Below are positions 11,877 to 22,579 of a DNA stretch of 64,000 bases, piece by piece. The position numbers were made by a program, and so were the translations under genes. Origin of the DNA: Actinorhabdospora filicis (lineage in GTDB: Bacteria > Actinomycetota > Actinomycetes > Mycobacteriales > Micromonosporaceae); assembly GCF_030269765.1 (NCBI RefSeq), contig NZ_BSTX01000002.1, forward strand, positions 186,001 through 250,000. The letters are read 5' to 3'. The notes under the pieces are model-generated. The model did no database searches. It was not told where the DNA came from and saw nothing but the letters and a program-made list of their open reading frames with translations. Position 1 is the first letter of the stretch. Each line of letters starts with the position of its first letter.

Positions 11877-12167
11877 TCCGCGTCAAGCGCACACCGTCTC
11901 TTGTGGACGTCGCGATCATCGTCGTCGTGCCGTCGGTGTGAAGGGTGATCCCGGCGGCCGACGCGTTGGCGTCGGCGGATCGTTCACGCGAGTGTCCATG
12001 CCCACTTGCGGCCACTGATCACGTCCTCATCGGCCAGGTCGTTTCCGCAGCTCAAGCATTACATAACGAGTGTTTTGCCAGCTCAGTTGATCATTGTTTC
12101 CCGCCTTGCGCCGTCCTAGCCTTCCGCATTGGCAAATCGATCGTTATGGAATGGACGGACCTCTCAC
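11877..12167 (+). other. Non-coding leader region of the secreted nuclease gene
   Basis: No gene is supported here. The last 110 bp are noticeably less GC-rich than their surroundings (stretches such as AAGCATTACATAACGAGTG and TTGATCATTG), which fits a promoter and 5' leader for the downstream exported nuclease. I could not assign a convincing -35/-10 pair. Confidence 0.4.
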
Positions 12168-14015
12168 ATGGCCATGAGAAGAAGGCTTCTCGCCACATCC
12201 CTCGCCGCCCTGGCGGCGGTGGGCATCCTGGCGGCCCAGCGCGCACCCGCGCAGGCCGCCGATCCGGTGGCACCGGTGGAAGCACCGCAATCGTTCGAGC
12301 AGCCGATCACGGCACGGCCCGGCGACGCGCCACCGGTGGTCACCACCGACAAGACCTGCAAGCCCGCCGACGGATCCAAGCGAATCGCGATGTGCCTGAG
12401 CACCGGCGGCGACGCCCCGGCCGCGGCGCGGGCGTTCACCAGCGCCGACCCTGAGCCGTACCCGTCCACCGTCCCGGTGCACACGAAGATGCCGTGGTGC
12501 GACACGCGGATCACCACCGGCTACAACCGTTACGAGGCCTGCCTGAAGTACCAGATGCTGCTCGTGGAGGTGTTCGCGCTGCCGTCCATGCAGCTGGTGG
12601 GCACCGCCGAGTTCGCCTTCGAGCAGCGGATCCGCACCCACCAGCTCGATTCCGGCATCGTCGTCACGGCGCGGTTCGTGCCCGTCCGCGTCGACGCCTC
12701 GATCGAGCGGGTCACCCTCAACTACACCGCGAACTGCGTGGGCGCCTGCACAAAGGAGCGGCCCCTGCAATGGGGCTCGATGTCGTGGACGGCGGGTGAT
12801 CTCCACGTCGCCGAGGTCTCCAACGGGTGGTACTGGAGCCGCACGGGCCAGGACGGAGCCCAGGACACCCTGGACCTGACGCAGTCCATCAGCTCCACCT
12901 CCCCGCGCGGGCTCGGTGTGTCCACCGCGGCCAACTACGCCGACTCGGAGACGACCGTGCGCTGCGACCGGCAGTACGCCAACACCGAGGGCTGCGTGCT
13001 CTACAAGCAGCGGCCGACGTTCACCGTGGACAAGGCCGCCCACCCGGCCGCCTACTACTTCATCGGCTGGACGCAGGACAAGATGGGCGGCATGGGCAGG
13101 CCGCGTGGTGCCGACGGCAAGGAGCATCCGATGCACCGGGAGGCCGATAAGACCGCCGCCGAGGCGAACCGGCGCAAGATCTGCCCCTCGGGATGGGTGA
13201 AGAACGAGGACACCATCGCCGCCACGCTCGCCGCCGATCCCGGCGACCAGGCCGAGTGCGACGAGTTCCCCTTCGCGGCGAGCAAGGAGAGCGGCACCGA
13301 CATCTTCGGCAACAAGACACCCGACGGAGACGGCTGCGACCAGTTCTACGCCTACGCCGCGATCCGGTTCCCCGGCAAGTGGAGTTTCGGTCTCGACTGG
13401 CGCATGGGCTACCCGCAGCCGCGTCCGACCGGGAAGTACGCGCCATGCGGCCGGGCCAGCATGCCCGGCAATCAGAACGGCGGCGTGGGCAATGACCTGA
13501 AGACCTTCCACGGCAGGCAGCGGGTCCTCGACAATGATCCCTACTTTGTGGACAGTGGCGGCTTCCCGTTCCGGCTTCCCTCCGCTGCACTGCAGAGCGG
13601 TGAGCTGCGCGCCGAGCAGCCCGGCACCGGATACTCGATGTGCCTCTCACCTCTGGACGGCCCCGTCAGCCCGGGCATCGGGATGAACCTGTGGGGCTGC
13701 GCCGGGCAGGCGACCCAGCAGTGGGACGTCCGGCGGGTGACCTCCGGCGTCTACGAGATCAAGAACCGGGCCGAAGGGCTGTGCCTGACCGCCGGGGCCG
13801 ACGGGTCGGCGATGGGCCTGGCGGCCTGCGCCGGAACCGCCGACCAGCTGTGGGCCACCACCTTCAACCACATGAGCCGGTACTCCTATAGCCAGTTCGA
13901 GGTCCGCAACACCTCCACCGGCAAGTGCCTGGGCACCTCCGATGGAGCCGTGGGGATCGGTGCGCGCGTGGTCCAGCGCGACTGCGCCGACACACCCGAC
14001 CAGAACTGGTTCTGA
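12168..14015 (+). CDS. Secreted NucA/NucB-like deoxyribonuclease with C-terminal ricin-type lectin domain
   Basis: 615 aa from the ATG of MAMRRRLLATSLAAL. The signal peptide ends near AQAAD. The central region is Cys-rich. At about residues 350-420 it carries the NucA/NucB signature C-D-E-F-P-F-A followed by SKESG (Cys about 364), the metal/catalytic motif of sporulation-type extracellular nucleases. Residues about 475-615 form a beta-trefoil with three QxW-like motifs (QQWDV, QLWAT, QNW) and paired Cys, as in carbohydrate-binding ricin B domains. I infer an exported nuclease docked to sugar polymers, for example on cell walls. The upstream TTG in frame lacks a ribosome-binding site. Confidence 0.75.
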   Translation: MAMRRRLLATSLAALAAVGILAAQRAPAQAADPVAPVEAPQSFEQPITARPGDAPPVVTTDKTCKPADGSKRIAMCLSTGGDAPAAARAFTSADPEPYPSTVPVHTKMPWCDTRITTGYNRYEACLKYQMLLVEVFALPSMQLVGTAEFAFEQRIRTHQLDSGIVVTARFVPVRVDASIERVTLNYTANCVGACTKERPLQWGSMSWTAGDLHVAEVSNGWYWSRTGQDGAQDTLDLTQSISSTSPRGLGVSTAANYADSETTVRCDRQYANTEGCVLYKQRPTFTVDKAAHPAAYYFIGWTQDKMGGMGRPRGADGKEHPMHREADKTAAEANRRKICPSGWVKNEDTIAATLAADPGDQAECDEFPFAASKESGTDIFGNKTPDGDGCDQFYAYAAIRFPGKWSFGLDWRMGYPQPRPTGKYAPCGRASMPGNQNGGVGNDLKTFHGRQRVLDNDPYFVDSGGFPFRLPSAALQSGELRAEQPGTGYSMCLSPLDGPVSPGIGMNLWGCAGQATQQWDVRRVTSGVYEIKNRAEGLCLTAGADGSAMGLAACAGTADQLWATTFNHMSRYSYSQFEVRNTSTGKCLGTSDGAVGIGARVVQRDCADTPDQNWF

Positions 14016-14055: not shown

Positions 14056-14730
14056 TCATACCGCCCGCGCCCGCAACCAGGTCCGGTCGCGGTCGAGGTA
14101 GGCGTCCACCGCCAGGCCCGCCTCGGCCAGGCACTCCTCCAGCTCCACCTCCGACAGCAGCCGCTCCTGGAAGGAGTGCGTCCACACCTTCTCGCCGATG
14201 CGGTACTCCAGGGTCGCCGCGACCACGCCCGGCTCGGGATGGTCGACGGCCAGGGTGGAGATGCGCACGCCGTAACGCTCCGATGTGGACACCGCGAAGT
14301 AGCTCGGCAGGTGCCGCTGGATCAGCACGCACCCGCCCGGGGCGACGTGCGCGCGGCAGGTGGCCAGCATCGCCGCGCGCAGGTCCTCGCGGTAGGTGTT
14401 GACCAGGAACGACGCCAGCAGCACCACGTCGAAGGTGCGGCCCAGGCGCAGGACGGCGATGTCGCCCAGGTGCGTCTCGGCGTCGCGGACGTGCGCCAGC
14501 ATCTCGGGTGACTCGTCCACGGCGGTCACCGGATGCCCCAGGGCGACCAGGTCGCGGGTCAGCCGCCCCGCCCCCGAACCGAGCTCCAATATGGACGCGC
14601 CCGCCGGGACGGCCGCGTGCACGATCTCGGGCTCCCCCGTCGAGGGCAGGGCGGTGTAGACGGCCACGGCGCAGCCGTCCGGGGTGATGGGCCCCGGACC
14701 GCTGCCCCGGCGCCGCAGCGGGGCGCTCAC
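14056..14730 (-). CDS. SAM-dependent class I methyltransferase of the RiPP locus
   Basis: 224 aa. The GTG start overlaps the TGA of the upstream HExxH gene (GTGA), so translation is coupled. Motif I ILELGSGAG is at residues 47-55, and the acidic residue binding the SAM ribose is in VTAVDESPEM. The rest follows the Methyltransf_25/11 Rossmann pattern (FDVVLLASFLVNTY; GGCVLIQRHLP). The acceptor is not readable from sequence. Because it is the last gene after a precursor peptide and a peptide hydroxylase, I infer that it methylates the modified peptide. A family of O- or N-methyl transfer to small metabolites remains possible. Confidence 0.85.
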   Translation of the reverse strand: MSAPLRRRGSGPGPITPDGCAVAVYTALPSTGEPEIVHAAVPAGASILELGSGAGRLTRDLVALGHPVTAVDESPEMLAHVRDAETHLGDIAVLRLGRTFDVVLLASFLVNTYREDLRAAMLATCRAHVAPGGCVLIQRHLPSYFAVSTSERYGVRISTLAVDHPEPGVVAATLEYRIGEKVWTHSFQERLLSEVELEECLAEAGLAVDAYLDRDRTWLRARAV

Positions 14731-16175
14731 GCCGGAACCGCCTCGATGAGGCCCTCGCGCAAGAGCCCGGCGATACCGCTGCGGCAGTCCCGGATCGCCG
14801 GCTCGCGGGGACCGCCCACGGCCTCGGCGTAATCGGCTTCGATGGCGGCCGGATCGCGGCCGTCGCAGAGCGCGTAGACCGTCCAGGACGCCAGGTTCAG
14901 CCAGTGCAGGCGGCCGGTGGCCGCCGGGGCGACCACGAGGCGGCCCTGGCCGGGCACCGGGACGGCGTCGGCGGGCTCGCTGGCGCGCAGCCTTACCGGA
15001 CCGGGCCCGGCGGCCTCCACAGTGGACACCTGCGCGGCCGGGATCGGTGCGGTCCAGCCCGCCCGGATCCCCGGCGCCAGCTCCTCCAGCACGTCCACCA
15101 GCCAGCTGGCGAACCGCAGCCCGTACGCGCTCAGCTTCTCCGGTACCACCCGCTCCAACTGCTCGCCGAGGTAGGACGCCCGCTCCAGCGGGGTGGCGTG
15201 GGTGCGGGCGCTGCCCGGTGTCGGCGGGGTCATCGCCGCGCCCTTGAGCGGTGGCCCGAACTCGGCCAGGACCTCCGGTGGCGCCTGGGCGGCGGCCCGC
15301 TCGAACAGTGTCATGTGGACGTAGACGTGCAGGGCGAACAGCACCCGCATCACCGACCACTCCATGCGCCGCCACGGGATCGGGATCGCCGGAGTCGTGG
15401 CGGCCGGGCCGATCGCGGTGAGCTCGCCGCAGCGCAGGATCTCGAAGAGCTGGAGGTGCAGGGCCTCGTGCAGGATCATGCCCGCCGCGTCCCAGGGATT
15501 GGCGACCAGCTCGGGGGCGACGAAGATGGTGCCGGGCAGGCCGTCGCCGCCGGACAGGGACAGGATCGTGCCGTCCTCGTCGCCGTCGCGGGCCAGCCCG
15601 ATCATGCCGACGTGGCGCAGGACGCCCGGCCCGACCTCGGGGAGCAGAGTCGCGAGCAGCCGGGCCCCGCGCTCGATTCCCTCCAGTGTCTCGGGTGTGG
15701 GCGCCACCGGTGCCTCGGCCGACGGGTTGGGGAACACCGAGCGCAGGCCCTCCCACATGCGCAGTGACAGCGGCTCCTCGGGCCGCTCGTCGAGGCGGGT
15801 CCACACCCAGGCCGAGCCGACCGAGGGCCAGGCGAGGCGGGCGGGCTCGGCCAGTGCCGAGGACAGGCCGCCGCCGGGGGTGGCGGGCAGCAGACCGTCC
15901 AGCATGGACGCGGCGGGCGCGCCGTCGCGCATGACGGTCACGTCGACCTCGAAGGCGTTGCGCAGGGCCGGATCGCGCAGGAGCGCGCGCAGGGACGCGG
16001 TGTCGGCGAGGCTCCAGCGTCCGGCCCGCTCGGCGAGGGCGGGATGGCGGCGGGCCAGGGCGGCCAGGCCGACGCGCAGCCGGGCGAGGGCGCGTTCCTC
16101 GATGGCGGCGGAGTCGCCGAACTCGGTGTGCTCGCCGAGCAGGCGCCCGGCGTGGGCCACGATGTCGGATGCCAC
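14727..16175 (-). CDS. HExxH-type peptide beta-hydroxylase with C-terminal PqqD-like (RRE) domain
   Basis: 482 aa from a GTG behind a strong GGAGGTGA ribosome-binding site. The metal-binding motif H-E-A-L-H lies at residues 236-240 (MILHEALHLQLFE), inside a helical domain typical of the 'HExxH motif-containing putative peptide modification protein' family, members of which act as 2-oxoglutarate-dependent beta-hydroxylases on ribosomal peptides. The last ~85 residues (LHWLNLASWTVYALCDGRDPAAI, then a final helix IAGLLREGLIE) fit the PqqD-like RiPP recognition element that binds leader peptides. A 43-aa precursor-like ORF lies directly upstream and a methyltransferase overlaps downstream. The catalytic assignment is from the family; the peptide target is inferred. 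Confidence 0.8.
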   Translation of the reverse strand: MASDIVAHAGRLLGEHTEFGDSAAIEERALARLRVGLAALARRHPALAERAGRWSLADTASLRALLRDPALRNAFEVDVTVMRDGAPAASMLDGLLPATPGGGLSSALAEPARLAWPSVGSAWVWTRLDERPEEPLSLRMWEGLRSVFPNPSAEAPVAPTPETLEGIERGARLLATLLPEVGPGVLRHVGMIGLARDGDEDGTILSLSGGDGLPGTIFVAPELVANPWDAAGMILHEALHLQLFEILRCGELTAIGPAATTPAIPIPWRRMEWSVMRVLFALHVYVHMTLFERAAAQAPPEVLAEFGPPLKGAAMTPPTPGSARTHATPLERASYLGEQLERVVPEKLSAYGLRFASWLVDVLEELAPGIRAGWTAPIPAAQVSTVEAAGPGPVRLRASEPADAVPVPGQGRLVVAPAATGRLHWLNLASWTVYALCDGRDPAAIEADYAEAVGGPREPAIRDCRSGIAGLLREGLIEAVPA

Positions 16176-16199
16176 GGATTCACCTCCGGTCGGGTGGGG

Positions 16200-16228
16200 C
16201 GGGTACGCCGCCGTCAACGGCGTACCCG
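16200..16228 (-). terminator. Attenuator-like hairpin between precursor and maturase genes
   Basis: CGGGTACGCCG and CGGCGTACCCG (11 bp, perfect) close a 7-nt loop, between the stop of the 43-aa ORF and the ribosome-binding site of the HExxH gene. RiPP operons often place a leaky stem-loop here so that more precursor than enzyme is made. Confidence 0.6.
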
Positions 16229-16234
16229 GGGGTG

Positions 16235-16366
16235 TCAGGCGCGCGGCCCGCTGTTGGAGGGGGCCCAGCCGCGCTCGGCGGGGGACTCGCCGGCGACGGC
16301 CGGGGACGCCAGGCGCGTCTCCTTGGCGAGCAGTTCGCGGGGGACGGCGATCTTCGTGGTCGGCAT
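16235..16366 (-). CDS. Putative RiPP precursor peptide, 43 aa
   Basis: Short ORF from an ATG seven bases behind a near-perfect AGGAGGT site. The product begins MPTTKIAVPRELLAKE and ends ERGWAPSNSGPRA. The first ~20 residues are helical and charged, as expected for a leader recognised by a PqqD-like domain. A Ser/Ala/Pro-rich stretch follows, then a C-terminal segment with one Trp, one Asn, two Ser and two Pro as a possible core. There are no Cys or Thr-rich clusters, so it is unlike a lanthipeptide or thiopeptide. Its position ahead of the HExxH/RRE and methyltransferase genes, with a hairpin after it, supports a precursor role. Its role as substrate is inferred. Confidence 0.72.
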   Translation of the reverse strand: MPTTKIAVPRELLAKETRLASPAVAGESPAERGWAPSNSGPRA

Positions 16367-16392
16367 GGCAATACCTCCTGCGATCGTGTGAC

Positions 16393-16412
16393 GGCTCGCG
16401 TGGGGGCGAGCC
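16393..16412. promoter_or_regulatory. Inverted repeat in the precursor 5' leader
   Basis: GGCTCGC, 6-nt spacer, GCGAGCC, located 26 bp upstream of the precursor start codon and just downstream of the proposed -10. It could be an operator or an mRNA leader hairpin. Confidence 0.35.
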
Positions 16413-16419
16413 GGGGCCG

Positions 16420-16449
16420 ACGTTAGGAGCCGCTGTCACTTCGCCGTCA
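16420..16449 (-). promoter_or_regulatory. SARP-type direct repeat and -10 element before the precursor gene
   Basis: Read on the minus strand: TGACGGC, 4 nt, TGACAGC, 6 nt, TAACGT. The two heptamers are spaced exactly 11 bp and lie on the same helix face just upstream of a -10-like hexamer. This is the arrangement bound by SARP activators. The AfsR-like gene next door is the obvious candidate binder. The repeats partly overlap the last codons of that gene's restored reading frame. Confidence 0.55.
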
Positions 16450-16457
16450 TTCGAGGG

Positions 16458-19208
16458 TCATGGCAGGTGGCCGAGGTCGCGCAGGGCGGCGCGGATCTCC
16501 CCGGCGCCGGTGAGGCCGAGTTCGTCCACGATGGACAGGGCGGCGGCGTAGCGGCGGCGGGCCGAGGTGGTGTCGCCGAGGGCGAGGTGGGCCTGCGCGA
16601 GGTGGCGCAGGGCGATCGATTCGCCGTTGCGGTCGCCGACCTCGGTGAACAGCTCGATGGCGGTCCGGAGGTGTTCGGCCGCCTTGGCGGGCTCGCCGAG
16701 GCCGAGGTGGGCGAAGCCGAGGCTGTCGTGGGCTCCGGCCTGGCCGTGCCGGGAGCCCAGTTCGGTGTGCAGGGCGAGGGCGCGTCCACAGTGGTCGATG
16801 GCGGGGCGGTACTCGCCGAGGTGGGCCTGTGCTCAGCCGATGGCGTTGAGGGCGACGGCCTCGCCGCGGCGGTGTCCGGTGGCGCGGAAGAGTTCCAGGG
16901 CGCAGCGGCCGTGCTCGATCTCCTGGGCGTACATGCCGCGTCCGTCGAAGTGGACGGCGAGGCTCTGGTGGGTGTGGGCGAGTTCGGTGGGGTCGTCGAG
17001 GCCGGCGGCCAGGCGTGTGGCGGCCTCCAGGTGGTCGCGTGCGGCGGTGTGCTCGGCGCGCATGGACAGTACGCGGGCCAGGCCGCGGTGGGCGCTGATC
17101 TGGGCGAGGGTGAGCCCGGAGCATTCGGCGGCCTTGAGGGCGATGGTCAGGACCTCGGCCCAGTCGTCCCAGTGGCCCTGCCAGTCGAGGTAGTTGCGCA
17201 GGGCCCAGGCGAGGCGGACGGTGTGGGCGTCCAGGCCGTGCTCGAAGCCGAGGCGGACCATGGCCAGCAGGCTGGAGTGCTCGGTGGTGAACCAGGTGAG
17301 GGCGGTGATGAGGTCGCCGAGTTCGGCGAGGCGGACGCCTTCGGCGGCGGGGGAGGGCTCGATGCCCCGGCGTTGCGGCTGGAGGAGGCGCATGGCGGCG
17401 TAGGCGGTGTGGACGTAGTGGTCGAGGAGCCGCTCGATGGCCTGTAGCCGCTCGGGTTCGGGGTCGTGGGCGGTGGTGAGCTCGTGGGCGTGGGCGCGGA
17501 TGAGGTCGTGGCGGGTGTAGCGCCCGGGGGTGGTCTCGGTGACCAGGTGGGCGGCGGTGAGTTCGGTCAGGGCGCGCTCGGCGTCGCGGGGTGGTGTGCC
17601 GGTGAGGCTGGCGGCGGCCGGGACGGTGATCTCGGCGCCGGGGTGCAGGCCCAGGAGCCGGTACATGCGTGCGGCCGGTGCGGTGAGGGCGCGGTAGGAC
17701 CAGTGGAAGACGGCGCGGAGGCTGGTCTCCTCGTCGCCGTGGTCGAGGGCGTCGAGGCCGCCGGAGACGATGGCGGCCAGTGGTATGCCGGGGCTGAGGG
17801 CGGCGCGGGCGGCCAGGATGGCCAGGGCGAGCGGGAGTCCGGCGCCGCGTGCGATGAGCGCGGCCGGCGCGGGTTCGTCCTGTGTGGACGGTGTGCGGCG
17901 CAGTCGCGGGCGCAGCAGGGCGCGAGCCTCGGTGTCGGTGAGCAGTCCCAGTGGGACGGGTACGGCCGAGGCGGCGACGAGTCCGGCGAGGTTGTCGCGG
18001 CTGGTGACCACGGTCAGGCAGCCGCCTCCGCCGGGCAGCAGCGGCCTGGCCTGGGCGGCGTCGCGGGCGTTGTCGAGGACGACCAGGACGCGGCGGGCGG
18101 CCAGCAGGCTGCGGTAGAGCCCGGCCATGGTGTCCACATCGGACGGGATGCGCTCGCGTGGCACGCCGAGTGCGTCCAGGAAACCCGAGAGCGCCTCTTT
18201 CGGGGTGACGGTTCTGTCGCCGGGGGCGAAGCCGCGCAGGTTGACGTAGAGCTGCCCGTCGGGGAAGTGGCGGGCGGTGTGGTGTGCCCAGTGCAGGGCG
18301 AGGGAGGTCTTGCCGACCCCGGCCATGCCGCTGATGGCCACGGTGGACGGTCCGTGCCCGGCGAGGCGGTCGGCGGCCAGGGTGTCCAGCAGTCGCAGGG
18401 CCTGCTCGCGCCCGGCGAAGCCGTCGACGTCCGGTGGCAGCTGGCGGGGTACGTCCGTCACCGCCGTGGTGGGGGCCTCTCCGGTGAGGAGCCCGGCGTA
18501 GACGGCGCGAAGTTCGGCGCCGGGCTCGCTGCCGAGTTCCTCGGCCAGGCGCGAGCGGATGCCCTCGTACTCCTCCAGGGCCTCGGCCTGCCGTCCGAGG
18601 TGCCGCAGCGCCAGCAGCAGGCGTGTCCACAGTGTCTCCCGTAACGGGTGGCGCGAGGTCAGCTCGCGCAGCTCGGCCACGTGGTCGCCGGCGCGCCCGA
18701 TCGGCAGGTCGAGGTCCACGCGGCGCTCGACGGCGGCCAGCCGCCGCTCGGTGAGCTCGGCGCCGAGGGCCTCGGGCACCCGTACGCCCTCGAAGGGCTC
18801 GCCGCGCCACAGTCCCAGGGCCTCGGTCAGCAGTGCCCGCTCGGTGCCGGGGTCCGCGGCCTGGGCCGCGCGGTCGAGGAGGCGGGTGAAGCGCAGGGCG
18901 TCGACGGCGTCGGGCGGCAGTGTGAGGGTGAAGCCCTCGGGTGTGGTGGCGATGCGGTCGTGGCCGAGGACGCGGCGCAGGCGCCCGATGTAGGTCTGGA
19001 GGCTGCCCTTGGGGCTGGCGGGCGGGTGGTCGTCCCAGACGGCCTCGGCCAGCCGCCACACCGGAACCGGCCGCCCGGCCGTGGCGGCCAGCACGGCCAG
19101 GACGGTGCGCAGCCGCCCGGTGGTCAGCGGCGTCTCGCGTCCCCCGACGTGCAGTGCGAAGGGCCCCAGTAGCGCCACCGTCGGCCCGGTCCCCGCGTCC
19201 CAGCTCAT
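16458..19208 (-). pseudogene. AfsR-like SARP/NB-ARC/TPR regulator interrupted by one in-frame TGA
   Basis: The open frame from ATG 19208 (GGGAGG site) encodes a winged helix, a BTAD, an NB-ARC ATPase (Walker A GMAGVGKTS near residue 290; VLVVLDNARDAAQ) and TPRs. It stops at codon 792 (TGA at 16833-16835) in NAIG*AQAHLGEY. The same frame continues without another stop for 124 codons of clear TPR sequence (HCGRALALHTELG; LRHLAQAHLALGD) to a TGA at 16458. Related AfsR-type proteins usually have Trp after NAIG, so TGG to TGA is the simplest explanation. The 791-aa product keeps its DNA-binding, BTAD and ATPase parts and may still work. It is placed to control the RiPP genes just downstream. Confidence 0.78.
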
Positions 19209-19490: not shown

Positions 19491-22346
19491 TCAGCCCAGC
19501 CGGGCGGCGAGTCCCGGCAGTGCGGCCCGCTCGATCGCCTCCCGTGCGGCGGCGACCGCGCCGGGCTCCCCACCGCGCAGCAGGGCGATCTCGGTGAGCG
19601 CCACCGCGGCCAGTGGCGGCACCGAGCGCAGGCCCGCGACGGCGGCCGCGGCCCGGTCGGCGTCCCCGGCCACGAGGGCATCGCCGAAGGTCAGCCAGTG
19701 CCGGAAGTGCGGAATCGTCACCCGCTCGGCCAGCTCATGCGCGGGCGCGATGACCTCGGCGGCTTCTCCGGCCCGGCCGAGCTGGACGAGCGTGACGGCC
19801 AGGTCCACGCGCACGGCCAGCTCCCCGACCGGCTCGTCGATGCCGCCCACCAGGTCCAGGCACTCGGTGAGCGCGGCACGGGCGCGCTCACGGTGGCCGT
19901 TGTCGCGCAGCCGGACGCCGAAGCGGCGCAACCCCATCGCCAGCCTGCGCGGAGCACCGCCCTCGCGCAGGTGCGCCACACCGCGCTCGAAGTACACGTC
20001 CGCCTCATCGTCGGCGCCACGCGCGGCGGCCAGCTCGCCGAGCATGGTCAGTTTGCTGCCCGCCGACGTGGCGTCCCCGGCGGCCACGAACAGCGCGTGC
20101 GCCTCCCGCAGGTGGTCCTCGGCCTCGGCGCGTTCGCCCCGGTCGCGGTGGGCCTCGGCGAGCACGGACAGCAGCTCGGCCAGCAGCCACGGGTCGCCGT
20201 GGGCGCGGGCGGCGGACAGGGCGCGCTCGCCGAGGTCTTCGAGCCCGGCGATGGTGTTGTCGCGCATGGAGCTCTCGAACAGGCGGATCAGGCCGAGCTG
20301 GGCGATGCCCTCGGGGACGCCGGAACGCTCGGCCGCCGCGTGGCCGAGCGCGGCGACCTCGCTCAGCTCGGTGAGGTCGGCGTTGAAGCGCAGGAAGGTC
20401 TCGAAGGTCCAGGCCAGCCGCCAGCAGCGCTCGTCGCGGCCACTGGCGGCGGCCTCGCGCAGCAGCCCGAGGATCTCCTGGGACTCCACGGCGAACCAGC
20501 GCTGCGGGCTCTCCCGGTGGACGCTCAGCCCGGCCGGGACGGTGACGCCCGAGGCCCGCCGGGCGGTGTACGCATTGGACTCGATGGCCGCGTCGGCCTC
20601 CGTGCACAGCGCCAGCCACGCCTCGCCCACCCGGTCCAGGACGCCCGGCCCGGCCAGGGGACGCGCGAAGGCGCGCACCAGGTCGTGCAGCCGGAAACGC
20701 GGCTGCCCCAGCTCGTCGGCGCCCGCCGGTTCCACGAAGGAACTGGCCACCAGTGAGCCCAGGACCCGCGCGCCCGCACGCGGGGAGACACCGAGGACGA
20801 CGCCCGCCGGCCACGCCGGGAACTCGCCCCACGTGGTGGCGGCGAGCCCGGCGAGCAGCGCGCGCTCGGAGCGTCCGAGCGTGGCGTAGCCGGAGGCCAG
20901 GGCCGCGCCGACGCTGCGTTCGTCGCCGACGAGGTGGCCCAGCCGGTCCTCGGCCTCGCGCAGGGCGGCGGCGATCTCGTGGAGGGGACGCCGGTGCAGG
21001 CCGTGCCCGGCGGCGATCCGCAGCGCCAGCGGGAGCCGGTCGCAGAACCCGATGATCTCGGCGGCGGCAGCCGCTTCCGCTTCGATGCGGGCGGGGCCGA
21101 GGACGGCACGCAGCAGCGCCACGGCGTCCTCGGATGGCAGGGGATCCAGGGCCAGGCGCAGCGCGCCGTCCAGGTCGGCCAGCAGCCGCCGTGAGGTCAC
21201 GATCACCGGACAGCCCGGCGGCGGCAGGAGCGGCGCGAGCTGCCCGGCGCCGGCGGCGTTGTCCAGGACGATCGTGCGGGGAGCCGCCGACAGCAGTTCC
21301 CGGTACAGCGCGGCGGCCTCGTCCAGATCGTGCGGTATCCCGGCGCCCTCCATGGCCAGGCGGCGCAGGAAGTACCGCAGCGCGTGCAGCGGATCACGCG
21401 GGTCGGCGTGGCCGTGCAGGTCGATGTGCAGCTGGCCCGCCGGTGCCCGCGCGGCGACCCGGTGGGCCAGGACGAGTGCGGTGGCGCTCTTGCCGACGCC
21501 GGGCAGCCCGCTGAGGGCGACGATCGCCGCCCGGCCGGTGCCCAGGGCGTCGAGCAGGTGATTCTCGGCCTCGGCGAGCTCGCGCGTGCGGCCGGTGAAG
21601 TCGGCCAGGGGTGCGGGCAGGTGCCACAACGCCGACGGCGCGTCCGCCTCGCCGCGCAGGACGTCGCGGTGCGCCTGCTGAAGCCGCCGTCCCGGCTCGA
21701 CGCCGAGATCGCCGGTGAGGGCGGCGTGGACGGTGCGGTAGGCGTCCAGGGCCTCGGCGCGGCGGCCCGAGGCGTGCAGGGCCAGCATCAGCAGCGCGTG
21801 CAGGTCCTCGCGGTAGGGCTCCTCGGCGGCCACCGGTCCCAGGACCTTGGCGACCTCGTCGGGCCGGGCCTGCTCCAGCCGCGCTCGCGCCCACCGCGCG
21901 TGGGCGTCCAGGCGCAGTTCGGTCAGGTGCCGCGCGTCGGCGTCCAGTGGCTCGCAACCGGCGAACTCGCGGTAGGGTGCGCCGTCCCATAGCGCGAGGG
22001 CGTCCTCGATGTTCCCGGCGTCGCCGGTCGCGGCCAGGCCGCGGAAGCTCTCCACGTCCACGGTGTCGCCGGGCTGGAGCGTGAAGCGGTAGCCGCCGGG
22101 GCCGTGGGCGATGCGCCCGGCGCCCAGGACCCGGCGCAGGCGGTGCGCGTACTCCTTGACGTTGCGGCGCGGCGCGCTGGGCAGGCCGTCGGGCCACAGC
22201 GCCTCGGCGAGCCGGTCGACGTCCACGGTGCGGCCCGGCAGGTGCAGCAGCAACGCCAGCGTCAAGCGCTGCTTGTGGGCGGCGCCGATGTAGACCGGTG
22301 CGCCGCCGTCGCTGACGCGCAGCTCCCCGAAAAGCCGAAACTCCAT
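19491..22346 (-). CDS. SARP/BTAD-type NB-ARC regulator
   Basis: 951 aa from ATG 22346 (MEFRLFGELRV) behind GAGGG. An OmpR-like winged helix (KQRLTLALLLHLPGRTVDVDRLAEALW) and BTAD reach to about residue 245. An NB-ARC ATPase follows (VALSGLPGVGKSATALVLAHR; TIVLDNAAGAGQLAPLL; LPLALRIAAGHG), then an alpha-helical TPR-like tail. A longer in-frame ORF exists upstream but lacks a good ribosome-binding site. It diverges from the secreted FG-GAP gene and follows, on the same strand, the other SARP gene. It is probably a pathway-specific activator. Its target may be the divergent gene, whose upstream region contains an inverted repeat. Confidence 0.85.
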   Translation of the reverse strand: MEFRLFGELRVSDGGAPVYIGAAHKQRLTLALLLHLPGRTVDVDRLAEALWPDGLPSAPRRNVKEYAHRLRRVLGAGRIAHGPGGYRFTLQPGDTVDVESFRGLAATGDAGNIEDALALWDGAPYREFAGCEPLDADARHLTELRLDAHARWARARLEQARPDEVAKVLGPVAAEEPYREDLHALLMLALHASGRRAEALDAYRTVHAALTGDLGVEPGRRLQQAHRDVLRGEADAPSALWHLPAPLADFTGRTRELAEAENHLLDALGTGRAAIVALSGLPGVGKSATALVLAHRVAARAPAGQLHIDLHGHADPRDPLHALRYFLRRLAMEGAGIPHDLDEAAALYRELLSAAPRTIVLDNAAGAGQLAPLLPPPGCPVIVTSRRLLADLDGALRLALDPLPSEDAVALLRAVLGPARIEAEAAAAAEIIGFCDRLPLALRIAAGHGLHRRPLHEIAAALREAEDRLGHLVGDERSVGAALASGYATLGRSERALLAGLAATTWGEFPAWPAGVVLGVSPRAGARVLGSLVASSFVEPAGADELGQPRFRLHDLVRAFARPLAGPGVLDRVGEAWLALCTEADAAIESNAYTARRASGVTVPAGLSVHRESPQRWFAVESQEILGLLREAAASGRDERCWRLAWTFETFLRFNADLTELSEVAALGHAAAERSGVPEGIAQLGLIRLFESSMRDNTIAGLEDLGERALSAARAHGDPWLLAELLSVLAEAHRDRGERAEAEDHLREAHALFVAAGDATSAGSKLTMLGELAAARGADDEADVYFERGVAHLREGGAPRRLAMGLRRFGVRLRDNGHRERARAALTECLDLVGGIDEPVGELAVRVDLAVTLVQLGRAGEAAEVIAPAHELAERVTIPHFRHWLTFGDALVAGDADRAAAAVAGLRSVPPLAAVALTEIALLRGGEPGAVAAAREAIERAALPGLAARLG

Positions 22347-22463
22347 GCCCTCCCTCTCCGGACCGATCGTGATCATGGTGGCCCCGGCTGTCAAGATCTG
22401 GCCACCCATCGTGATTGCCTCGCGATTGACCGCGTCCCCCGAGCATTCGATGTGCTGGAAGAC

Positions 22464-22480
22464 GGACGTGGCCCACGTCC
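22464..22480. promoter_or_regulatory. Inverted repeat upstream of the FG-GAP protein gene
   Basis: GGACGTG, GCC, CACGTCC: 7-bp perfect arms about 100 bp before the FG-GAP start codon, between divergent genes. A possible operator. Confidence 0.35.
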
Positions 22481-22579
22481 GCCGACCGTCCATGCGGTCG
22501 CACGACGGGGGACCGCACGGCCGGACCGGACATGCCCATGTGCCGGGTTTGCCCCCCGGCGCCGAAAGACGGAGCGATC

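Follow-up and report, generated by a model that had tools for sequence, protein, structure and literature searches.

Does the short open reading frame just ahead of an HExxH oxygenase gene in Actinorhabdospora filicis encode the precursor of a ribosomally synthesised and post-translationally modified peptide (RiPP) and, if it does, what might so small a set of genes make? The frame lies in a stretch of 64,000 nucleotides (hereafter the window; contig NZ_BSTX01000002.1, positions 186,001 to 250,000), for which an earlier note had proposed a three-gene RiPP locus of precursor, peptide hydroxylase and methyltransferase. We found that the frame belongs to a conserved precursor family linked to the oxygenase gene. 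Taking the locus as a whole, we consider it probable that it is a minimal RiPP pathway, in which a Streptomyces antibiotic regulatory protein (SARP) would control the precursor gene, the leader of the peptide would dock on the oxygenase, and the core would be oxidised at or beside a conserved ERxWxP motif.

A conserved precursor family upstream of the oxygenase gene

We compared 23 loci without duplicates. The first set of 14 comprised the window and loci L006, L007, L008, L013, L014 and L037 to L044; the later set of nine comprised L077 and L079 to L086, some of which are closely related to loci of the first set, as L081 is to L007. Duplicates left out were L005, L015 and L016 (same genome as L008), L017, L036 and L065 (that of L014), and L066 (that of L013). 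Also left out of the counts were L078, which has the same peptide as L007, hits H2 to H6 from S. goshikiensis and Streptomyces sp. Mg1, and the distant hits H8 and H9.

A short frame lay just upstream of the enzyme gene in all 23 loci, and 22 of the 23 precursor peptides carried ERxWxP 13–16 residues from the C-terminus. The E, R, W and P of the motif were invariant in the first 14 loci and unchanged in all intact peptides. Because it is conserved together with the same C-terminal motif, the short frame goes beyond chance and, judged by its sequence conservation, belongs to a real precursor family, in line with the note's reading of it as a precursor. In the window peptide, the leader would span about residues 1–26 and the core would run from E31-R32 through W34 and P36; the segment that the note had named as the core, ERGWAPSNSGPRA, indeed starts at the conserved motif. 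The two outcomes that the note had named as refuting, homologous loci lacking the short frame and an unconserved C-terminus, did not appear. The sole exception among the homologous loci was L082 (genome G1054), where the leader is kept, the frame continues without the ERxWxP core, and the enzyme frame looks intact.

Among the 989 stop-to-stop frames of the window, a single one contained ERxWxP within its last 25 residues. A leave-one-out profile built from the other 13 first-set peptides, with the window peptide excluded, ranked that peptide first of the 989 (E 8.8e-6; runner-up 0.28). The profile of the first 14 peptides recovered the precursor in all nine later loci (E 9e-22 to 6.6e-7), eight of which had an intact core. 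We also searched 22 genomes with the precursor profile: the 11 with the enzyme (one broken), which include the profile's own members, all matched at 3e-14 or better, and the best match in the 11 genomes with only distant HExxH enzymes was 0.0097. N-termini were kept within clades (MPTQ/MPSQ-V-P, MPQLEIEFP and MLVD-IETP), and between R and W 21 of the 22 intact cores had Ala, Gly or Ser, the exception being Glu in L079. Nonsynonymous rates (dN) were below synonymous rates (dS) in all 11 precursor pairs computed, a result of little weight given the few substitutions. None of the eight precursor peptides tried matched any NCBIfam model.

An HExxH oxygenase with an RRE-like C-terminal domain

By family model and predicted fold, the window enzyme is an alpha-ketoglutarate-HExxH oxygenase. 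It passed TIGR04267 (mod_HExxH, 'aKG-HExxH-type peptide beta-hydroxylase', IPR026337) at 62.3 bits against a cut-off of 40; the enzymes of L006, L007 and L008 likewise exceeded that cut-off, and H236, E237 and H240 were invariant in 13 enzymes. The enzyme family profile found ChlH (8s5f) at E 6.8e-5, with the HExxH, the PWR and a later His aligned, and its only other match was a designed protein at chance level. A single-sequence search of solved structures reached ChlH only at E 0.07. The AlphaFold2 model, whose predicted local distance difference test score (pLDDT) was about 66–90 for the motif region and the His helix behind it, matched ChlBH (8s5f) with a Foldseek E of 1.3e-5 and a VIA Z of 19.0 over 283 residues (root-mean-square deviation 4.0). 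SjiH-Ni (22ob) came second at Z 15.7 and the matches after it scored Z 6.5 or below, a family missing from the VIA listings not being thereby excluded. By analogy with this enzyme family, the peptide would be hydroxylated.

The PqqD-like C-terminus that the earlier note had seen on the enzyme looks like a domain of the leader-binding type, just below the Pfam cut-off. Among relatives scored singly, the L006 enzyme passed Pfam PqqD (23.9) and those of L007 and L008 fell below; nine of 13 enzyme family members matched at E 0.01 or better. Modelled alone, the C-terminal 90 residues reached a pLDDT of 83, and RiPP recognition elements (RREs) stood among their best structural matches, though with modest scores: leader-bound TbiB1, McbB, TbtB and a sactipeptide enzyme. 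We describe the domain as RRE-like, and it may well bind the leader.

SARP-type regulators and an operator-like repeat

BTAD/SARP regulators occurred in the examined stretch of 18 of the 23 loci, with a BTAD-type regulator in all 14 first-set loci; related loci are not independent events in these counts, and domains were checked for the regulators of the window, L039 and L042. The gene lies upstream and co-directional in the window, L008 and L014, divergent in L013, downstream and convergent in L037 to L044, and some 10 kb away, beyond a lanthipeptide cluster, in L006 and L007. Four of the nine later loci showed such a gene (L077, L079, L080 and L081). The window regulator scored 252.6 bits against HaaT (cut-off 1125) and 55.7 bits against FxSxx_TPR (cut-off 300).

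SARP sites are heptameric direct repeats, classically spaced at 11 bp (PMC10972967; statements taken from this and the other cited papers refer to those parts of their text that were available). In each of L037 to L044, eight loci in all, a TANNNT box followed a heptamer repeat of 11-bp period (6–7 of 7 bases; 0–1 of 200 shuffles as good). The window repeat agreed at 5 of 7 bases with an 11-bp period, and 1 of 200 shuffles was as good; in the window and in L037 to L044, the box sits 7–9 nucleotides (nt) past the repeat. Control periods of 10 and 12 never rose above 3 bases in the first-set scan. Exact 11-bp repeats without a TANNNT box were present in L007, L008 and L014 (4–9 of 200 shuffles as good), L006 had a 6/7 repeat without a box that was matched by 58 of 200 shuffles, and L013 had no repeat at its promoter, with only 2/7 when a box was included. 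Later loci had both repeat and box (L077 and L080), a CACACC repeat without a box (L079 and L082) or a GGGACA repeat at 11 bp (L081). A sigma-70 promoter scan of 15900–16700 found nothing. The 11-bp repeat ahead of many precursor genes, that of the window included, is operator-like and could be a SARP-type operator.

The proposed pathway and its alternatives

In the pathway that we favour, a SARP-type activator, probably the adjacent AfsR-like protein, would bind the 11-bp-spaced heptamer repeat and turn the precursor gene on. The N-terminal leader of the peptide would dock on the PqqD/RRE-like domain at the C-terminal end of the HExxH protein, and the zincin-like Fe(II)/alpha-ketoglutarate site of this protein would oxidise the C-terminal core at or beside ERxWxP. 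Beta-hydroxylation of W34 or P36 would be the likeliest product, these residues being our best guesses, and leader and tail would presumably be removed.

Several observations weigh against this account. The reaction and its target residue rest on analogy, and we know of no characterised relative that acts on Trp. The window peptide is the most divergent of the family: its R is followed by Gly, and Asn replaces the Tyr or Phe found in most others. The AlphaFold2 model of the whole enzyme has a mean pLDDT of 59. Pfam PqqD gave the window enzyme 21.3 bits, just below the cut-off of 23.4; structural scores of the lone domain are modest (Foldseek best E 0.028, for TbiB1 at probability 0.99; VIA Z no higher than 5.8), and the winged helices found in ribosomal oxygenases do about as well (Z 4.7–4.8). 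As for control, no regulator was detected in the examined stretch of L082 to L086, the window repeat is the weakest of those with a -10 box, the GGGACA repeats of L084 and L086 stand at 12 bp, and L006, L013, L083 and L085 showed no convincing operator. The TPR region of the window regulator is broken by an in-frame TGA (16833–16835), and a TPR-like frame runs on to 16458; intact relatives of the regulator exist, and the window gene appears to be either an impaired copy or the product of a sequencing error. Lastly, no transporter or protease belonging to the locus was recognised.

Characterised relatives bear on what the enzyme might do. PflC and PosC hydroxylate Gln at the beta position and also break the backbone, by oxidation or by hydrolysis, in a leader-dependent manner (PMC12636437), and PesO beta-hydroxylates Pro, with His, Asp, Phe and Gln named as earlier targets (PMC13060819). 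The enzyme might serve mainly to cut the peptide: alpha-hydroxylation (or hydrolysis) at or beside ERxWxP would yield a trimmed or C-terminally amidated peptide, and the enzyme would itself be the missing protease. PflC/PosC, of the same family, strip an ARMD tetrapeptide from the C-terminus by oxidation, and PflC also hydrolyses peptide that lacks its leader (PMC12636437); moreover, the tail after ERxWxP is short and variable, and a protease gene was not noticed among the genes scanned, which were not searched systematically for one. However, the peptides have no ARMD-like tail in common, the conserved motif has bulky residues whereas Ala and Gly favour cleavage (PMC12636437), and beta-hydroxylation is the commoner outcome in the literature examined. 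We regard cleavage as the main activity as rather unlikely.

A second alternative moves the reaction away from the motif: ERxWxP would be a recognition site (a follower), and oxidation or a crosslink would occur elsewhere, for example at the acidic residue four positions before it. All 22 intact peptides have Asp or Glu at that position, 21 of them Asp, and HExxH enzymes are known to act on Asp (PMC12636437). Yet the window peptide has only Glu at that place, and in intact peptides it is the E, R, W and P that never vary. This, too, seems to us an improbable arrangement. We give about the same low credence to a broader proposal, in which the pair makes a signal: with no enzyme but the HExxH protein, the ERxWxP peptide would be oxidised and perhaps also set free, and the adjacent NB-ARC/TPR SARP regulator would sense it and drive the unit's own precursor and other pathways. 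If true, one oxygenase on its own would suffice to produce a RiPP autoinducer.

The hairpin after the precursor gene

In the favoured pathway, the hairpin after the precursor gene may act as a brake that keeps enzyme expression low relative to the peptide. Its 11-bp perfect stem was matched or beaten in 18 of 1087 background segments of 80 nt, and a perfect stem of at least 11 bp lay within 80 nt 3' of the precursor in 10 of the 14 first-set loci; L013, L014, L038 and L042 had imperfect stems only. Folding energy was rejected as support for the window hairpin, 310 of 869 segments being equally stable. A scan of 15900–16700 for T-tailed terminators found nothing, and no T-tail follows the hairpin.

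A short frame with invariant Arg, Trp and Pro, followed in those 10 loci by a hairpin, might also be a regulatory leader peptide for the enzyme, of the attenuator or ribosome-arrest type and with the hairpin as its switch, rather than a precursor. The motif lies well before the end of the frame, though, and the tail behind it varies; members of a clade share their N-terminus; and the RRE-like domain of the enzyme needs a peptide partner. We consider a regulatory leader very improbable.

Layout of the locus and the methyltransferase

On the minus strand, the order from 5' to 3' is regulator, operator-like repeat, ribosome-binding site, precursor, hairpin, oxygenase and methyltransferase (Table 1). 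The short frame with its AGGAGGT, the hairpin, the 482-residue HEALH protein and the GTGA-coupled methyltransferase described in the earlier note were thus all located. The oxygenase gene has a GTG start with GGAGGT ahead of it. Whether the second AfsR-like regulator, further upstream, is linked to the locus is uncertain.

Table 1. Features of the locus and their positions in the window
Feature	Position	Strand	Basis
Class I S-adenosylmethionine (SAM) methyltransferase, 224 aa, accessory of the window locus	14056-14730	minus	GTGA overlap
HExxH oxygenase, 482 aa, HEALH at residues 236-240	14727-16175	minus	TIGR04267, ChlH profile, ChlBH fold
PqqD/RRE-like domain at the C-terminal end of the oxygenase, residues about 393-482	14730-14999	minus	
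Hairpin in the precursor–enzyme intergenic gap; perfect stem of 11 bp, loop 7	16200-16228	minus	
Precursor peptide gene, 43 aa	16235-16366	minus	conserved upstream frame
Precursor ribosome-binding site AGGAGGT	16373-16379	minus	sequence
-10 box TAACGT, after the heptamer repeat	16425-16420	minus	sequence
Putative SARP-type operator GAATGAC-N4-AAGTGAC, 11-bp period, together with the -10 box	16420-16452	minus	sequence repeat
AfsR-like SARP regulator (Trans_reg_C, BTAD, NB-ARC)	16833-19208	minus	domain matches
Second AfsR-like regulator, upstream	19491-22493	minus	NCBIfam AfsR and HaaT matches, both below cut-off

The small size of the gene set was also supported. Radical_SAM had 16 matches in the genome and none in the window, and no LanB, YcaO or protease gene was seen among the window genes scanned, which were not searched systematically for these.

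The methyltransferase of the earlier note's three-gene locus had no support in the other loci. No relative was found in the other 13 first-set loci (best E 0.67) or in the 10 loci fetched later (limit 1e-6), and we rejected the gene as a family trait, having found it only in the window. Because it overlaps the oxygenase stop codon as GTGA, co-translation with the oxygenase is likely, which makes methylation of the peptide plausible in the window strain; there, the enzyme may act after the oxygenase. Its best NCBIfam match was the daptide methyltransferase NF041820, at 74.4 bits and far below the cut-off of 175. The closest relatives elsewhere, at about 48–51% identity, are scattered (12 of 61 near genomes and six plasmid records) and had no consistent neighbours, only scattered SDR- and MFS-like similarities. 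Similarity to methyltransferases near or fused to other HExxH enzymes was short and confined to motifs.

Convergent with the locus, a plus-strand gene at 12129–14015 of the window encodes a C-terminal ricin-type lectin domain and has a weak NucA/NucB nuclease match.

Comparison with known systems

The nearest system by profile and fold is ChlBH/ChlH, a radical SAM-HExxH fusion (8s5f) with the same HExxH oxygenase domain; the window, by contrast, has no radical SAM gene, and its precursor is unrelated as far as seen. PflC/PosC of Pseudomonas are likewise stand-alone alpha-ketoglutarate-HExxH RiPP enzymes that act, leader-dependently, on the C-terminal part of the precursor (PMC12636437). Their cluster holds an MNIO-nitroreductase, a GNAT, transporters and a Gln-run/ARMD core, whereas the window has ERxWxP, an RRE-like domain and putative SARP control. 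PesO (nitrilobacillins), whose target is a Pro near the C-terminus (PMC13060819), and BipH/BpmH (biphenomycins) are also HExxH peptide hydroxylases (PMC13060819, PMC12707348, PMC12257519), but their partners are enzymes of the MNIO, AS-like, radical SAM or arginase kinds, and the loci compared here share no gene for any of these.

FxSxx-COOH and HaaA cyclophane RiPPs are likewise actinobacterial systems with small precursors and NB-ARC/TPR proteins. The window differs in that its HaaT and FxSxx_TPR matches are far below cut-off, it has no radical SAM gene, and its peptide lacks an FxSxx C-terminus. Daptides share with the window the best NCBIfam match of the methyltransferase, but one below cut-off, and other daptide genes were not noticed among the genes scanned. 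Cacaoidin-type clusters also have a SARP regulator beside a RiPP cluster (PMC12224297), with unrelated precursor and enzymes.

The enzyme family and the RiPP logic are already known, and so is the SARP–RiPP pairing, which is not new because SARPs adjoin RiPP clusters such as that of cacaoidin. What looks new is the type of precursor and core, together with the sparse set of genes and the coupling to an operator: in the literature searched, in which subscription journals were thinly covered, we found neither an ERxWxP precursor nor a precursor–HExxH–SARP unit described. The first 14 loci share enzyme and regulator alongside the precursor, and the precursor–enzyme unit looks like an undescribed, very small natural-product pathway. 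In the literature examined, HExxH oxygenases are accompanied by further modifying enzymes, radical SAM and MNIO enzymes among them. A locus with an HExxH-RRE protein as its only shared enzyme would be a clean system for the action of the family on Trp/Pro peptides. The combination of ERxWxP, HExxH and a SARP-type repeat could serve as a search key for a RiPP family that has no NCBIfam precursor model, and the operator-like repeat makes control directly testable.

Distribution and neighbouring genes

Precursor and enzyme genes travel together in several groups of actinobacteria, often with a nearby control gene; L007 comes from Streptomyces globosus and L014 from Microtetraspora fusca. Full-length relatives show about 40% identity to the window enzyme, which is present in a single copy in its genome. 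On Streptomyces plasmids, seven of nine matching records cover at least 80% of the enzyme. In the family of genome G620, presumably Streptosporangiaceae, 19 of 341 genomes matched at 1e-15: nine with the full-length enzyme, nine with other HExxH proteins, and genome G956 with a copy from which the catalytic stretch is missing. In the family of Streptomyces nymphaeiformis, 11 of 394 genomes matched at 1e-40. Closer to the window the enzyme was rare: three of 300 genomes matched in the window's own family, only the window genome over full length, and two of 394 matched in its class, one being the window genome itself. A search of genome contigs with the single protein found no relatives, and one with the enzyme alignment found three loci.

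The G956 copy (L044) lies directly 3' of its precursor gene on the minus strand as a 389-residue frame, next to a short regulator frame; it is a decaying copy or an assembly fault. In L006 (9703–19190) and L007 (9581–19080), a class I lanthipeptide cluster directly follows the precursor–enzyme pair and contains an FDLD precursor, a sulfotransferase, LanC, LanB and an ABC transporter.

Such neighbours could mean that the pair is an accessory of other pathways, for example of adjacent class I lanthipeptide clusters, and weak LanB/LanC matches near L083 fit with this; in the window, the pair could instead be a decaying remnant, as decayed copies are known (the L044 enzyme and the L082 peptide) and the window regulator is interrupted. 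Lanthipeptide relatives were found in only 3 of the 23 loci, however, and the L081 peptide is nearly that of L007, yet without lanthipeptide genes. The window precursor and enzyme frames, for their part, are open with motifs kept. An accessory or remnant origin appears highly unlikely, and we retain the minimal pathway as the preferred account.

Another HExxH subfamily (L002, L003, L011 and L026 to L034) was rejected as part of the family, as no ERxWxP precursor was found upstream or by profile; L032 and L012 had no usable enzyme frame in the upstream-precursor check. Within this material, L026 (571–2922, minus strand; genome G767) has a distant HExxH enzyme with a C-terminal Methyltransf_24 domain, and the short frame upstream ends in HDHDHMDDHDHTQ. 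L011 (4275–7086, S. xanthophaeus plasmid) has a distant HExxH protein with a 67-residue upstream peptide that contains a His/Asp-rich stretch, and the N-terminus of a nearby methyltransferase resembles, by eye, the N-terminal part of that peptide.

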